Shown here piece after piece: positions 1,212 through 38,749 of a DNA stretch of 38,749 bases (position 1 is its first letter; every line of letters begins with the position of its first letter). The notes under the pieces are model-generated. The model was not told the origin of the DNA. It did not search any database and saw nothing but the letters and a program-made list of their open reading frames with translations. This stretch comes from Spirochaetota bacterium (lineage in GTDB: Bacteria > Spirochaetota > UBA4802 > UB4802), in assembly GCA_029907515.1 (NCBI GenBank), contig JARYLT010000016.1:1-38749 (forward strand), given 5' to 3'. The position numbers and the translations under genes are program-made.

Positions 1212-2699
1212 ATGTGGGAATTTACTCAAACAAGTGTTCACTGGATAGATATCGTTTTGATAGTAAGCTATTTAGCAGGCATAACCGTATTTGGCTTTTA
1301 TTACAAATCACACATTAAAACTGCAAAAGATTATTTTTTGGCCAACAGGTCATTGCCCTGGTGGGTCATAGGTCTTTCAATCATTGGCACCAATATTGGT
1401 TCAAACGATTACATTGGTGCTGCAGGAAATGCCTACAGCATTGGGATAGCTCAGGCAAATTTTGAATGGATAGGTGCTATCCCTGCCATGATACTATCGG
1501 CACTTGTCTTTATTCCATTTTTCTGGCGTGCAGGCGTTTATTCAATACCTGAATATTTGGGCTTGCGATATAATAATGCAGTGCGTTTTATTGCGGCCTG
1601 TGTCATGAGTGTATTTGCAGTGGTTATTGTTGGAGTGTTTCTGTGGGCAACCGCCATTATGCTGCAAACATATTTGGGCTGGCCAATATGGTTTTCAATA
1701 CTGGTAACAGCAACCGTTGTTGGCTTTTATACTATATCGGGCGGGCTTGGCGCAGTTGCTATCACCGATACCGTTCAGACATTCATCATGTTCTTTACAG
1801 CCATTATTGTTGCTTTTATTGGTATTGAAAAAATTGGTGGTTTCGATGTGTTTATAAAAACATTACAAAACAATTACCCTGACCACCTCCATTCATTTTT
1901 GCCTGCCAATCACCCAGTATTCCCATGGCCAGGCGTAATACTGGGACTTGGCATTGTGCTTTCTCCCGCATACTGGTGTGCCAATCAGGCAATTTTACAG
2001 CGAACCTTTGCAGCCAAAAGTGAATGGGATGGCAAAGCTTCAATGATGTTTGCTGCATGCCTTAAAACGTTTGTACCATTTTTAATTGTAATGCCAGGGC
2101 TACTTGCTCTGACCCTTGCAGGCAAAAGTATTACCCACCAGGATCAGGCATTGCCATGGGTTATTAAACATATTCTACCTGCAGGCATTTCAGGCCTTAT
2201 GTTTGTTGCATTCATTGCTGCTTTACAGTCATCGATAGATTCAACCATGAATTCCACCTCGGTTATAATTGTTCGGGATATTATTAATGTTGCCAAAAAA
2301 ACTAAACTGACTGACGGAGCACAATTGCGTCTGGGGAAATTGTTTACATTTATCATTCTTATTGTAGGCATTGCATTTGCACCAATCACAGCTTACTTTC
2401 AGGGTATTTATGTGTATGTGCAATATGCATTATCTCTTTTTCAGGGGCCAATTTTTGCCCTGATGCTCTTTGGTATCTTAGATAAACGTATTACACCTTC
2501 AGCTGGTCTTTTTAGCATGATATCGGGGCTGGCTGTTGCAGCAGTCTTAGGCTGGTTACAGTTCAACATGCTGTATATAGCATTTCTTTCATTTGTATAT
2601 TCGGCGATAGCTCTGTATATTGTTTCCCTGTTTACGAAAAGAAAACCAGAAGCTGAACTGAAAAATGTTGTGTATAGCAATGTTGTTGAAATTGATTAA
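1212..2699 (+). CDS. sodium:solute symporter (SSS family)
   Basis: A 495-residue integral membrane transporter of the SSS/SLC5 family, which uses the sodium gradient to import sugars, amino acids, carboxylates or similar solutes; length and the run of hydrophobic segments fit the usual 13-helix LeuT fold. The N-terminal stretch with AKDYFLANRSLPWW, followed by GTNIGSNDYIGAAGNAY, is the characteristic start of this family, and SIPEYLGLRYN a further family hallmark. The substrate cannot be assigned. ATG at 1212 has AAGGA at good spacing. It is followed 15 bp downstream by a small two-helix protein, probably its partner. A GGCGATAGCTC word lies at 2603-2613. Confidence 0.92.
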   Translation: MWEFTQTSVHWIDIVLIVSYLAGITVFGFYYKSHIKTAKDYFLANRSLPWWVIGLSIIGTNIGSNDYIGAAGNAYSIGIAQANFEWIGAIPAMILSALVFIPFFWRAGVYSIPEYLGLRYNNAVRFIAACVMSVFAVVIVGVFLWATAIMLQTYLGWPIWFSILVTATVVGFYTISGGLGAVAITDTVQTFIMFFTAIIVAFIGIEKIGGFDVFIKTLQNNYPDHLHSFLPANHPVFPWPGVILGLGIVLSPAYWCANQAILQRTFAAKSEWDGKASMMFAACLKTFVPFLIVMPGLLALTLAGKSITHQDQALPWVIKHILPAGISGLMFVAFIAALQSSIDSTMNSTSVIIVRDIINVAKKTKLTDGAQLRLGKLFTFIILIVGIAFAPITAYFQGIYVYVQYALSLFQGPIFALMLFGILDKRITPSAGLFSMISGLAVAAVLGWLQFNMLYIAFLSFVYSAIALYIVSLFTKRKPEAELKNVVYSNVVEID

Positions 2700-5016: not shown

Positions 5017-5148
5017 TATTGCGTAGACAAATACACATTTATATCCTATAAAAAAGCATTCTAAGATCCTCTTGCAGTGTAATGTAGAATCGCTATGTAT
5101 GGCGGTTAAGAAAATAAGTTTAAAAGTATTATTTCTGGAGGCATCAAA

Positions 5149-6747
5149 ATGAAACCAACATATATACTAACTCATGACGTGGGTACCACAGGCAACAAAA
5201 CATGCCTTTATAAAGTTGATAATAAAATAACACTTATTGATTCGTATCTGGTGGAATATCCTCTGTATATGCTTCCTGATGGAGGTGTTGAACAAAAAGC
5301 TGACCAGTGGTGGGATGCCATCTGTAAGGCCACAAAGATGGTAATGAAGAAAAGCGGTATTCCACCTGCAAAGATAGCAGCCATGGCATTCTGTGCACAG
5401 ATGCAGGGCTCTGTGTTTATTGACAACGATGGCAATGCATTGCGTAACCCCATGAGTTATTTAGATCAACGTGCTACCAGGCAAATTGAAAAATATCTGT
5501 ACAAAGGAATTGTTAAAATTGAAAAATGGAATGCTTATAAAACTATCAAATCATTAATTGTAACTGGAGGGCTTGCTGCAACGCCAAAAGACCCATTATG
5601 GAAATACCACTGGGTCAAGGATAATGAACCTGATATTTTTGCAAAAGCATACAAGTGGCTTGATGTTAAGGACTATCTGATTTTCAGATGCACCGGGAAA
5701 TTAGGTATGACACAGGATTCAGCTAATGTTACATTTATTTATGATACACGAAAAGGAAGATTGGGCTGGCATAAAGGCTTGTGCAAAATATTTGATGTAA
5801 ACATGGAACACCTGCCTCCTGTGTTCAACTCAACAGATACTATCGGTACTATTACAAAAAAAGCTGCCAGGGAATTAGGTATTGCTGAAGGTATTCCAGT
5901 TTTTGGCGGTGGTGGTGATGTTCCACTTACTCTGGTTGGTTCTGGGTGTACTGACCTGTATGATACAAACATCTATGTTGGAACCAGCGGATGGGTTTCA
6001 TCTAACGTTGATAAACGTATGGTTGATATTGGCAACTTTATTGCTTCAATCCTGGGATCTATCCCCAATCATTATGTGTATGTTGCCGAACAGGAAACTG
6101 CTGGTGCCTGTTTAAAATGGGTTCGTGATCATTTAGCTTTAGATGAAATAGGGATGTATTTGCAGGCTCGCCATATTGCAGACAAAAGTAAGGAATACGA
6201 ATCTTTGTATGATTTTTTGAATACGGTTGTAATGCAAACACCTCCTGGAGCCGGTAATGTTCTGTTCACACCGTGGCTCCATGGAAACCGTTCACCACGT
6301 GAAGACCCGTATGCTCGTGGCATGTTCTTTAACTTGAGTTTGACAACCGGCAAACGACAGATGATACGAAGTGTGCTTGAAGGCGTTGCATACCATATAC
6401 GCTGGATGCTGGAAGCTATGGAAAAAAAGATACCCCGTCAGAAGGTGCTGCGGTTTGCCGGTGGTGGTGCAAAATCTGATGTGTGGTGCCAGATTATGGC
6501 TGATATTACCGGCAGGCAGGTTGAGGCTATTGAAAATGAGATCAATGCCGGTACAGTTGGTGCTACGGTTGTTTGTGCTGTTGGTTTGGGGATTTTATCT
6601 TCATTCAATGAAGCAAAGCGTCTGGTGGGAGTGCGAAAAATTTTCAAGCCACAACCGCAATACGCTGATATGTATACACGCAATTTCAAAGTTTTTACCA
6701 AACTGTATGAAAAGAACAAAGATCTTTTTAAAATACTTAATTATTAG
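5149..6747 (+). CDS. FGGY-family carbohydrate kinase, xylulokinase-like
   Basis: A 532-residue cytoplasmic sugar kinase of the FGGY family, which phosphorylates ketoses or polyols with ATP. The N-terminal phosphate loop HDVGTTGNKTCLY contains Asp10; the catalytic base is probably Asp257 in GGGGDVPL; the C-terminal ATP-site signature includes GGGAKSD with WCQIMADITG. Overall it resembles xylulokinases more than glycerol kinases, but the substrate is not settled. ATG 5149 has GGAGG in front. It is first in a set with an aminotransferase, MFS carrier and class II aldolase (gaps of 17, 1 and 135 bp), so its product may be the phosphorylated substrate of the aldolase. Confidence 0.88.
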   Translation: MKPTYILTHDVGTTGNKTCLYKVDNKITLIDSYLVEYPLYMLPDGGVEQKADQWWDAICKATKMVMKKSGIPPAKIAAMAFCAQMQGSVFIDNDGNALRNPMSYLDQRATRQIEKYLYKGIVKIEKWNAYKTIKSLIVTGGLAATPKDPLWKYHWVKDNEPDIFAKAYKWLDVKDYLIFRCTGKLGMTQDSANVTFIYDTRKGRLGWHKGLCKIFDVNMEHLPPVFNSTDTIGTITKKAARELGIAEGIPVFGGGGDVPLTLVGSGCTDLYDTNIYVGTSGWVSSNVDKRMVDIGNFIASILGSIPNHYVYVAEQETAGACLKWVRDHLALDEIGMYLQARHIADKSKEYESLYDFLNTVVMQTPPGAGNVLFTPWLHGNRSPREDPYARGMFFNLSLTTGKRQMIRSVLEGVAYHIRWMLEAMEKKIPRQKVLRFAGGGAKSDVWCQIMADITGRQVEAIENEINAGTVGATVVCAVGLGILSSFNEAKRLVGVRKIFKPQPQYADMYTRNFKVFTKLYEKNKDLFKILNY

Positions 6748-35295: not shown

Positions 35296-35571
35296 TTACA
35301 GCAACTCAACACCTACTCTCTGTATGTGATCTAACAAATTTTTATTTTTAATTTTGTGTATGTTTATAACATCAAAATAATACGGTACATTAAGTTCTTC
35401 ATTGAGGCAATAGCTCACTTTGGTTTCATTGCCATCAATGGCAATATCTATATCGCTGCCTGGTTTATTACTACCTTTTGCGCGTGAACCAAACAATATA
35501 CATCGTGTTACACCGCATGTAATCAACACTTCTCGGATACGTTGTAATTCATCATCTGTTAATCCGTACAT
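35296..35571 (-). CDS. minimal nucleotidyltransferase antitoxin (MntA/HI0073-type)
   Basis: A 91-residue MNT-fold protein. The nucleotidyltransferase motif GSRAKGSNKPGSDIDIAID has Gly28-Ser29 and the metal Asp40 and Asp42; Asp67 in YFDVINI is the third. In HEPN/MNT toxin-antitoxin modules, MntA adds AMP units to the HEPN toxin and blocks it. Its ATG overlaps the 3' end of the upstream HEPN gene by 13 bp, so the two are coupled. All active residues are intact, while the partner carries a nonsense codon. Confidence 0.88.
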   Translation of the reverse strand: MYGLTDDELQRIREVLITCGVTRCILFGSRAKGSNKPGSDIDIAIDGNETKVSYCLNEELNVPYYFDVINIHKIKNKNLLDHIQRVGVELL

Positions 35572-35960
35572 ACCTTATCCTTGAATGTATCATATAATTT
35601 TTCCAATAACGGATAATATTCATTTTTTATTTTATTATACACTTCATTGGCTATATCCTCATCATACGTATGTACTGTTAAATTTCTATCCATAAGAGCA
35701 TCAAGCCAGGTTTGCCCATTATCTATTATCCCACTAAAATATGCAGTTTTTATAGCATCACGAGGTGAATGTATATCATATCCAATATATTCACAGTAAT
35801 CTTTTAAAAGCTTCCAGGATAACTCAAATGTTATTTCAAAAAACTGAATAATACCTGCTTTTTCTTATATAGTAGGATTCTGGACTTTTAAAGAATCCTG
35901 CAATAACGCAAATGACTGAGAATAATTATGAAATCGCTGTTTATACCTGATATCCTGCAT
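35559..35960 (-). pseudogene. HEPN toxin (HepT/HI0074-type) with nonsense codon
   Basis: A 134-codon frame from ATG 35960 to TAA 35559 encodes a HI0074-like HEPN protein except for a TAA at codon 32 (35865-35867). On both sides the sequence is conserved: RFHNYSQSFALLQDSL before, IIQFFEITFELSWKLLKDYC after. The RNase motif RX4H is intact in MDRNLTVHTY (Arg92, His97). The length matches the family. The nonsense codon makes the toxin probably inactive, with the antitoxin still encoded downstream. A sequencing error or stop readthrough would be alternatives. No good internal restart is visible before Met90. Confidence 0.82.
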
Positions 35961-36106: not shown

Positions 36107-36135
36107 TTGACACAAATCCCTATATCAATTGCTAT
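36107..36135 (+). promoter_or_regulatory. promoter for cobalamin leader
   Basis: TTGACA at 36107-36112, a 17-bp spacer and TGCTAT at 36130-36135, directly before the riboswitch. Confidence 0.5.
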
Positions 36136-36144
36136 TACAATTGC

Positions 36145-36246
36145 TTTTACGCAAAAGCGTAAAGCAGGAGGAAGTTGGGTGCAAATCCCACGCTGACCCG
36201 CAACTGTGATTCCCGGAACCCCGGGATAAGCCAGACACTCCTTGTA
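36145..36246 (+). promoter_or_regulatory. cobalamin riboswitch aptamer
   Basis: The core reads GGAAG, GGGTGCAAATCCCACGC, CCCGCAACTGTGA, a local hairpin TCCCGGAACCCCGGGA, and AAGCCAGACACTCC. These are the conserved blocks of the B12 box element (CCGCAACTGT and the GCCAGA segment). It is a compact type with a short peripheral arm. It should bind a cobalamin and lower expression of btuB. Outer limits are approximate. Confidence 0.9.
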
Positions 36247-36274
36247 GCTGGAATTCCTCGAGGATTGGGAGCCA

Positions 36275-36406: not shown

Positions 36407-38293
36407 ATGGTAAAAATCAAAAAGCTTTTAACAGTACTATTTGTGGCGATAGGCCCTGCTGTCTTTGCCCAGGAAGAAACACCCCTGGAAGATGTTGTTA
36501 TCAGTGCATACAAAAGCACCATCACCTATGGGCAAAGTTCTTCTGTAAGCATCATTACCAGCAAAGATATTGAAGCAGGAGGCTACCGGTTTGTAAGCGA
36601 TGTTCTGCAAACTGTTCCGGGACTAACGCTTGTGCAAAATGGGACGTTAGGCGGTACTGCAAGCGTATTTATCCGCGGTGCAAAGACCGGTAACACAGTA
36701 GTGCTCATTGATGGCGTAAAGGTTTTAGACCCGTCAACTATCGAACGTACGTTTGATTTTGGAACCCTTACCACCGACTCCATTGAGCGCATTGAGATTA
36801 TCAAAGGACCCCAGAGTGTACTGTACGGCTCAGATGCAACCGGCGGTATCATCAACATTGTTACAAAAAGGGGTCAGAGCAAGCCTCAGGTTACTGTAAA
36901 CCTTTATGGTGGTTCATACTATACCACACAGCTTTCAGCAAATATTTCAGCCGGCGATAGTTCATTCAATTATTCTTTTACTGCCGGGCAGCTTTCCGCT
37001 CAAGGATATTCACGGTCAACAAGGCCTTCCACAGCAACAACCCCGTACGATGATGATGGGATGTATCAACGCTATGCAATGGGCAAACTTGGTTACACAC
37101 CATTTACTGTATTAAGCATTGATGCAGGCTTTGCAGTAAAAGAAACAGACCTTGATTTAGACGATTATGCTCTTACAGATGATGCAAACTCCTACGAAAA
37201 CCGTAAAGAGATATCCGCATACACACAGCTTGAACACACCATTACACATTTCTGGAAACACAGCGTAAACGCAAGTGTATCTCAAACGATACGCTCATAC
37301 GATGATTTTGACGATGACGGTAGCGGTGGTTTTGCTGATTTTGGAGCGAATAACCGTTACACGGGAACTATCGCCCATACTGAATGGCTACACACTTTCA
37401 CACTGAAAGATATAAATACGCTGAATCTTGGCATCAGTTTTGAAAAAGAATATTCAAAAGTGCAGGATTACCTGGCTTCATCAAAACTTACCAATGATAC
37501 ATATGTCACTGGCTTTTTTGCTCAGGATCATGTAAATGTAGGTAAAATGTTTTATCTTACCGCAGGGGTCAGAGCCGATAAAAACAACATCTTTGGCTGG
37601 CAGCAAAGCTACACAGTATCACCGGCTGTAGTTATACCTACAGTAAAAACCAAACTCAAAGGCAACTGGGGCAAAGGCTACAAAGCACCCAGCCTGTATC
37701 AAATCTACGGTGATGGCGGAGTATATGTTGATGAAAATAAAGATTTAAAACCCGAAGAAAACACAGGATATGATGCTGGCATTGAACAACCATTATTTGA
37801 TATACTTACTGTTGGTATTGCTTATTTTAAAAACAACTATCGCAATATGATAGACTATGATTCCAGCACCTGGCCGGGAAAATATGTTAACATTGGCAGG
37901 GTTACTACTAATGGCTGGGAAGGATCGTTCACATTGAAGCCTGCTGAGGCTCTGACCCTAGGAGGTGGATATACGTATACAAAAGCCATAGATGAAAACA
38001 CTGATAAACAGTTATTACGCAGACCAAAACATCAGGGCTATGGCTCAGTGACTATTAATATTGATTCATTTGCCATATCGCTTATAGGTACATACGTTGG
38101 TGAGCGTATGGATTCGGGAAATAAGACATTAAAAAATTACATGAAAACCGATATTGCTGCACAGTATGCTCTGACCCCGCAGCTTACCATACAGGCAAAG
38201 GCTGAAAATATCACCAACAAACAATACCAGCAGGCATATGGATACAACATGCCACAACGAAGCTTTTATGCGGGATTAAAGGCAACTTTGTAA
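36407..38293 (+). CDS. btuB: TonB-dependent vitamin B12 receptor
   Basis: A 628-residue outer membrane receptor. The signal peptide (1-21, ending VFA) is followed by the TonB-box-like LEDVVISA; the plug domain includes SVFIRGAKTGNTVVLIDGVK and IEIIKGPQSVLYGSDATGG; a 22-strand barrel follows, ending with the pattern NITNKQYQQAYGYNMPQRSF. The terminal residue is Leu rather than the usual Phe. Cobalamin is the likely substrate from the riboswitch in front and btuFCD nearby. GAGGAGG precedes ATG 36407. Three copies of the CTATCGCC word and four of GCTCTGACCC lie inside it, the densest region of both. Confidence 0.92.
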   Translation: MVKIKKLLTVLFVAIGPAVFAQEETPLEDVVISAYKSTITYGQSSSVSIITSKDIEAGGYRFVSDVLQTVPGLTLVQNGTLGGTASVFIRGAKTGNTVVLIDGVKVLDPSTIERTFDFGTLTTDSIERIEIIKGPQSVLYGSDATGGIINIVTKRGQSKPQVTVNLYGGSYYTTQLSANISAGDSSFNYSFTAGQLSAQGYSRSTRPSTATTPYDDDGMYQRYAMGKLGYTPFTVLSIDAGFAVKETDLDLDDYALTDDANSYENRKEISAYTQLEHTITHFWKHSVNASVSQTIRSYDDFDDDGSGGFADFGANNRYTGTIAHTEWLHTFTLKDINTLNLGISFEKEYSKVQDYLASSKLTNDTYVTGFFAQDHVNVGKMFYLTAGVRADKNNIFGWQQSYTVSPAVVIPTVKTKLKGNWGKGYKAPSLYQIYGDGGVYVDENKDLKPEENTGYDAGIEQPLFDILTVGIAYFKNNYRNMIDYDSSTWPGKYVNIGRVTTNGWEGSFTLKPAEALTLGGGYTYTKAIDENTDKQLLRRPKHQGYGSVTINIDSFAISLIGTYVGERMDSGNKTLKNYMKTDIAAQYALTPQLTIQAKAENITNKQYQQAYGYNMPQRSFYAGLKATL

Positions 38294-38310
38294 TATTGTT
38301 GTCATGCACA

Positions 38311-38349
38311 ATGTATGAGCGATTTTTCAATCGCTCATACATGCTTTTT
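38311..38349 (+). terminator. terminator after btuB
   Basis: ATGTATGAGCGATT (38311-38324), loop TTTC, AATCGCTCATACAT (38329-38342), then GCTTTTTG. A perfect 14-bp stem 18 bp after the btuB stop. It also lies between btuB and the convergent transposase, so a REP-type hairpin is an alternative reading. Confidence 0.8.
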
Positions 38350-38407
38350 GCAATTGAATTTTTTACAGCAATATTTCTTAACTGTAATGCTCTGACCCTT
38401 TTTTCTT

Positions 38408-38749
38408 TTACACCCACCCAAGTATCATGGAATACTTCTTTAGATAGTATTCCTCATACCTCATAAACTTTGCTACCCTCTCAGCAAACGTTTTCCCCAA
38501 CTGCACAAAGAAGTCATGATGGTCTATAGGTACTCCTACATCAGCATTCTCATCTAAATATGCTCGTATGCTGCTGTAGTGGTATTTGGTAGGCTCAGAG
38601 CATAGTCTTTTTCGTATGGGATTATAGGCTAAATACCATAATAACCACAGCAAATAGTGAAACCCATCCTTAGCAAACTCTATGATGCTATCCTTATACC
38701 GCTCATTCCAGAATGGTCCGGTTCTACCGGTTATTTTGTTATACACTTC
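38408..38749 (-). CDS. REP-associated (Y1) transposase, 5' end outside window
   Basis: The C-terminal 113 residues of a RAYT/IS200-like transposase. GPFWNERYKDSIIE and YLAYNPIRKRLCSEPTKYHYSS are diagnostic of this group; the frame continues past the window end (codon GAA at 38747-38749), so the HUH and tyrosine motifs are not visible. RAYTs act on single-stranded DNA at short palindromic REP elements. Ten bases after its stop lies GGGTCAGAGC on the coding strand, a word repeated several times in btuB. Intact or broken status cannot be judged. Confidence 0.8.
   Translation of the reverse strand, partial: EVYNKITGRTGPFWNERYKDSIIEFAKDGFHYLLWLLWYLAYNPIRKRLCSEPTKYHYSSIRAYLDENADVGVPIDHHDFFVQLGKTFAERVAKFMRYEEYYLKKYSMILGWV

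Follow-up and report, generated by a model that had tools for sequence, protein, structure and literature searches.

RAYT/TIRYT elements, their inverted repeats and intragenic REPs that occur as inserted elements are already known (PMC3733652). In TIRYT/TIRtron elements, RAYT-like genes are flanked by terminal inverted repeats with the consensus GGGGWSAS (PMC3733652; PMC6006769), and in the RAYT-REP/REPIN systems the RAYT gene is flanked by its own repeat family, whose copies are almost all extragenic (PMC2817692; PMC3116915).

Here we describe a ten-base word, GCTCTGACCC/GGGTCAGAGC, in a spirochaete genome of 3.49 Mb and 193 contigs (G000), one of which, contig 77, makes up in its entirety the stretch analysed in detail (38,749 nt, hereafter the window). 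The word shares features with both systems. As in TIRYT/TIRtron elements, a RAYT-family gene is bounded by inverted short repeats in its complete copies, the repeats are found elsewhere in the genome too, as singles, pairs and groups, and the form GGGGTCAG, given by the two-thirds of words that have C next, fits GGGGWSAS. The RAYT here is about 199 aa long and was compared with NCBIfam models and PDB sequences; a C-terminal HTH/DnaA-like domain is typical of subclass 2.1. As in RAYT-REP/REPIN systems, the RAYT gene is flanked by its own repeat family, the repeat varies together with the RAYT subtype, and the inverted intergenic pairs are REPIN-like. The present case differs from both in that many bare words lie inside genes, where they are conserved at the DNA level between species. 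It further differs from REPs in that the word has no GTAG foot (judged by GT[AG]G) and that a fold test gave no unusually stable hairpin at any of the six window words, so that single-strand folding around the sites, which the original prediction for this DNA had suggested checking, was not borne out.

In Neisseria, DNA uptake words are strict short words that are found within genes and, between genes, as inverted pairs. The word described here resembles the uptake sequences of Neisseria and Pasteurellaceae in both respects; however, it is sparse, clumped and tied to a transposase family, with a terminal word that changes with the RAYT subtype. Among open-licence papers, we found none describing bare copies of a RAYT word that are kept as DNA sequence in many unrelated genes, and searching such papers for the word as read on either strand returned nothing relevant.

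The word in the window

Six copies of the word, and none besides, lie in the window, where 100 dinucleotide shuffles gave 0.02 on average and never more than 1; the original prediction had placed all six correctly, with the same expectation of 0.02. The features are listed below, together with the fate of the btuB words in the loci (L045, L046 and L047) of the nearest annotated relatives, which are spirochaete metagenome genomes.

2106–2115, plus strand: word in a 495-aa ORF (1212–2696, plus strand), frame reading ALTL
36121–36260, plus strand: cobalamin riboswitch (RF00174, 46.5 bits), immediately 5′ of the btuB-type gene
36407–38293, plus strand: btuB-type TonB-dependent receptor, 628 aa, with four words (Pfam PF00593 and PF07715)
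36871–36880, minus strand: word in btuB, frame reading RGQS; retained in L045, absent from L046 and L047
37566–37575, minus strand: word in btuB, frame reading GVRA; retained in L045 and L046
37949–37958, plus strand: word in btuB, frame reading ALTL; retained in L045 and L046
38168–38177, plus strand: word in btuB, frame reading ALTP; retained in L045 and L046
38389–38398, plus strand: word nine bases past the RAYT stop and in inverted orientation to that gene; the terminal copy at the 3′ end of the RAYT unit
38408–38749, minus strand: C-terminal 113 residues of the RAYT, with the Y---NP motif; the remainder lies past the contig end

Five of the six copies are within ORFs, and the remark in the original prediction that the word lies inside coding sequence in several frames holds here and extends genome-wide to all five stop-free frames (see below). 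The btuB-type ORF has TIGR01779 (TonB-B12) as its top NCBIfam match, under the cut-off of that model, and the riboswitch upstream is consistent with a role of the gene in B12 uptake. In orthologue alignments, the word at 2106 is exact in G002, G003 and G004 and has 7 of its 10 bases in G005. The window also holds a small MNT-type nucleotidyltransferase-like ORF (35296–35571, minus strand) and, judged by eye, maybe a HEPN-like partner at about 35560–35960; the two are a possible toxin–antitoxin pair.

Abundance, frames and motif across the genome

The genome contains 154 exact words (73 forward, 81 reverse), against 0 copies of the word read backwards, at a density of about one per 23 kb with strong clumping. 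Chance or composition as the cause is excluded by this reversed-word count and by the shuffles, and the alternative raised in the original prediction, a host-wide sequence, finds support in the same genome-wide count. With up to one mismatch, 266 matches were found in the genome and 19 for the reversed control; in sampled stretches, 10 of the 14 one-mismatch variants were GCTCTGACAC. Exact and one-mismatch words stand at 154 to 112, whereas neutrality predicts about 1 to 30, an excess that would fit a moderate advantage per word, as a rough estimate that assumes equilibrium. Among the genomes compared, the abundance is confined to the order: in 39 genomes of other lineages, including other phyla, the word stays at background (0–7 copies, like the reversed control), and 13 other families of the phylum have only 0–5 copies each.

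Coding and intergenic shares refer to the DNA surrounding the sites that come first in the list, 100 of the 154, which covers the neighbourhood of about 90 words. Among the 81 classified copies, 47 fall within ORFs of 140 aa or longer and 34 in no ORF, and single words within ordinary genes make up about half of the copies. The coding words use each of the five frames in which the word gives no in-frame TGA (17, 12, 5, 5 and 8 cases), and their flanks are unrelated, yet they carry the same extended motif as the intergenic words, W-D-GCTCTGACCC-Y, in which position −2 is mostly A/T, −1 is never C and +10 is always C/T. The intergenic words form arrays with a spacing of roughly 40–110 bp, often close to contig ends, where the assembly breaks at RAYT genes. 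At six contig ends of G000 (L010, L012, L016, L025, L030 and L043), repeats such as GCGTACTACGCGTTCTCTGCGTGCGTTTCCAT are common to the inter-word segments. From their sequence, the arrays look as if they were built of mobile pieces of 60–110 bp.

Conservation of the word in coding sequence

Fifty coding words were compared with orthologues from four congeners, giving 181 comparisons, in 127 of which the exact word was retained, against about 26 expected from ordinary 10-nt windows of the same alignments. By congener, the values were as follows.

G001: 72% mean nucleotide identity; words exact in 25/43; control windows identical in 4%
G002: 81% mean nucleotide identity; words exact in 38/44; control windows identical in 13%
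G003: 88% mean nucleotide identity; words exact in 42/50; control windows identical in 30%
G004: 77% mean nucleotide identity; words exact in 22/44; control windows identical in 9%

Where all amino acids were unchanged, 121 of 140 words were identical, compared with 9–41% of control windows, and codons lying wholly inside the word and encoding the same residue were identical in 389 of 430 cases, against 212 ± 9.7 predicted from those codons at other positions of the same alignments. The gene around the retained words diverges by 13–28%. This identity goes far beyond what the protein needs: some process preserves the word as such, and the coding words are maintained at the DNA level. Some translations of the word, for instance ALT or GSD, are common short motifs, but ordinary protein conservation plus codon preference is hardly credible as the source of the word: the word and codon counts rule it out, the copies occupy five frames and the reversed word occurs 0 times. 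The outcome that would have spoken against the original prediction, namely btuB bases explained by protein conservation with no enrichment elsewhere, was thus not what the comparison gave.

Orthologues without the exact word align nearly always gap-free at the word sites, which rules out insertion of a 10-bp element. More broadly, the genic words might be leftovers of the insertion of a tiny MITE or REP whose frame was kept by chance, as intergenic arrays and inverted pairs adjoin RAYTs and REPs inside genes have been described from other bacteria (PMC3733652). However, the unrelated flanks of the coding words and the gap-free alignments make such an origin very improbable, and protection from substitution is not expected of leftovers.

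The btuB gene offers an example. Alignment of its homologues, proposed as a check in the original prediction, showed that the words persist across species: all four are kept in L045 (76% nucleotide identity), three of four in L046 from Spirochaetia bacterium UBA2205 (68%) and none of four in L047, from a different family of the order. L045 has a RAYT downstream of btuB as in the window (5025–5426; 76% identical to the query RAYT), and the RAYTs at btuB seem to have been inherited in place. Since this RAYT has a decayed terminal word beside four intact btuB words, and since no RAYT match was found in the examined btuB flanks of L046, including about 2.5 kb downstream, the btuB words are independent of a neighbouring element.

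The RAYT gene and its terminal words

The RAYT fragment of the window is 86% identical to residues 87–199 of a complete 199-aa RAYT from G003, which passes NCBIfam NF047646 (81.8 bits, cut-off 80). The HUH motif NHIHL and YLAYNP were seen by eye in the complete protein, the window fragment having the Y---NP part alone; a phmmer sequence search gave no PDB match for the RAYT. When the flanks of other RAYT copies were compared, as the original prediction had suggested, the clearest complete copies were found to have one to three direct words upstream, at about 80–360 bp, and one inverted word 3–28 bp past the stop, as at 38389. Among 31 RAYT loci, an exact word lies upstream in 18 and downstream in 14; among the rest, many show greater divergence or are truncated at a contig end. 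One further word lies inside the coding sequence of the G003 RAYT (L233, 1403–1412, frame reading CSDP), with a corresponding copy in L002.

RAYT relatives in word-poor genomes bear other terminal words: ATCTCTGGCACC in G011 and G020, GCTCAGAGCAATT in G011, CCTCTGAGG in G037, GGTCTGACCCC in G039 and GGGCTGACCCC in G048 (loci L268–L275, L279, L281 and L282). The form CTCTGGCACC is raised in G011 (35 copies vs 9 for the control) and G020 (24 vs 0), and has 0–21 copies in the remaining genomes, mostly at or near control. The variant words of the relatives and this enrichment indicate that word and RAYT subtype go together. The suggestion that the word could be the recognition word of this transposase is therefore strengthened as far as sequence can show, the word flanking RAYT copies and other subtypes bearing other words.

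Word retention and RAYT content

RAYT matches number 11 in G000, 8 in G001, 11 in G002, 18 in G003 and 1 in G004, the single match of G004 being partial and 51% identical, although copy numbers are uncertain because assemblies break at RAYTs. Sites with the word in both G000 and its most distant congener, G001, are probably ancestral. Such words are kept at 20 of 22 sites in G002, 19 of 25 in G003 and 11 of 23 in G004 (11/23 vs 39/47 for G002 and G003 together, p = 0.004), and windows with the same amino acids are identical in 20/29 cases in G004 and 101/111 in the others (p = 0.005). The erosion of words thus appears tied to RAYT scarcity; as it comes from one lineage, this dependence on RAYT is suggestive, not proof. 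Word-rich genomes of the order mostly have this RAYT; G017, G030 and G036, with words present and a RAYT match absent, are either exceptions or genomes whose RAYTs were lost in assembly gaps.

These patterns bear on whether the word is a DNA uptake sequence, such that word-bearing DNA would be preferentially imported, transformation would keep the genic words, and RAYT ends would carry or exploit the same word. A strict ten-base word in every usable frame, with inverted intergenic pairs and retention between species, is what such a system would give. Nevertheless, it is quite unlikely, given the low and strongly clumped density, terminal words that differ with the RAYT subtype and word erosion in the RAYT-poor congener, and in the literature searched no such word is reported for spirochaetes.

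Turnover between genera and dense domains

Between genera, word sites were shared in 0 of 32 comparisons, including the positions of the dense domains of G035, so that from genus to genus one set of sites gives way to another, each site being protected meanwhile; in G005, 2 of 9 words are at matching sites. The dense domains of G035 comprise 15 words in 9.4 kb around a RAYT and two stretches of ordinary genes with 18 words in 11.5 kb and 14 in 10 kb; when words were placed at random, the two G035 contigs simulated had no more than 6 and 9 per 12 kb. The domains lie at L264, L265 and L266 (contigs C2, C3 and C1), and just one surrounds a RAYT. G035 also contains REPIN-like inverted pairs, e.g., GGGGTCAGAGC-N18-GCTCTGACCCC, and its opposite-orientation neighbours within 110 bp are of the outward type in 9 cases and of the other type in 0. 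No replichore orientation bias of the Chi/KOPS type was found in three G035 contigs of 470–725 kb (plus/minus 11/13, 16/19 and 18/23).

Dense domains over ordinary genes and the lack of strand polarity, together with conservation at the DNA level within genes and a sharp motif with few near-variants, would suit the binding site of a chromosome-organising or regulatory host protein unrelated to RAYT, which RAYT units adopted as their target. We consider this unlikely, since it leaves unexplained both the matching variant words of RAYT relatives and the erosion where RAYTs are scarce, and since site sets differ between genera.

Proposed role of the word

Two findings favour recognition by RAYT: different RAYT subtypes come with different terminal words, and words are lost in the lineage with few RAYTs. 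We propose, with a probability of roughly 0.6, that a family of RAYT/TIRYT-type HUH tyrosine transposases recognises the extended word W-D-GCTCTGACCC-Y, and that this word is maintained genome-wide by a RAYT-dependent process. Against this proposal, the coding words appear to persist regardless of RAYT proximity, as in L045 and L046, the genera compared share no sites, erosion alongside RAYT scarcity comes from a single lineage, and G017, G030 and G036 have words but no RAYT match. We infer recognition, nicking and a reason for maintenance along the following lines: a RAYT/TIRYT-type HUH family would have long been resident in the spirochaete order, its protein may bind or nick the word genome-wide, and the words could be kept through a host benefit, e.g., in fork or single-strand DNA processing, or alternatively word-bearing alleles could win by RAYT-driven biased conversion.

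Tentatively, and at slightly under even odds, the resident RAYT family might have made its terminal word a functional site across the chromosome, held in protein-coding genes by selection or by RAYT-driven biased conversion, in which case transposase and word would form a stable host system outside any mobile element. The word sites are countable and provide a comparative test of RAYT function. Some codon choices in these genomes, and perhaps some amino acids, are set by a DNA word, not by the protein.
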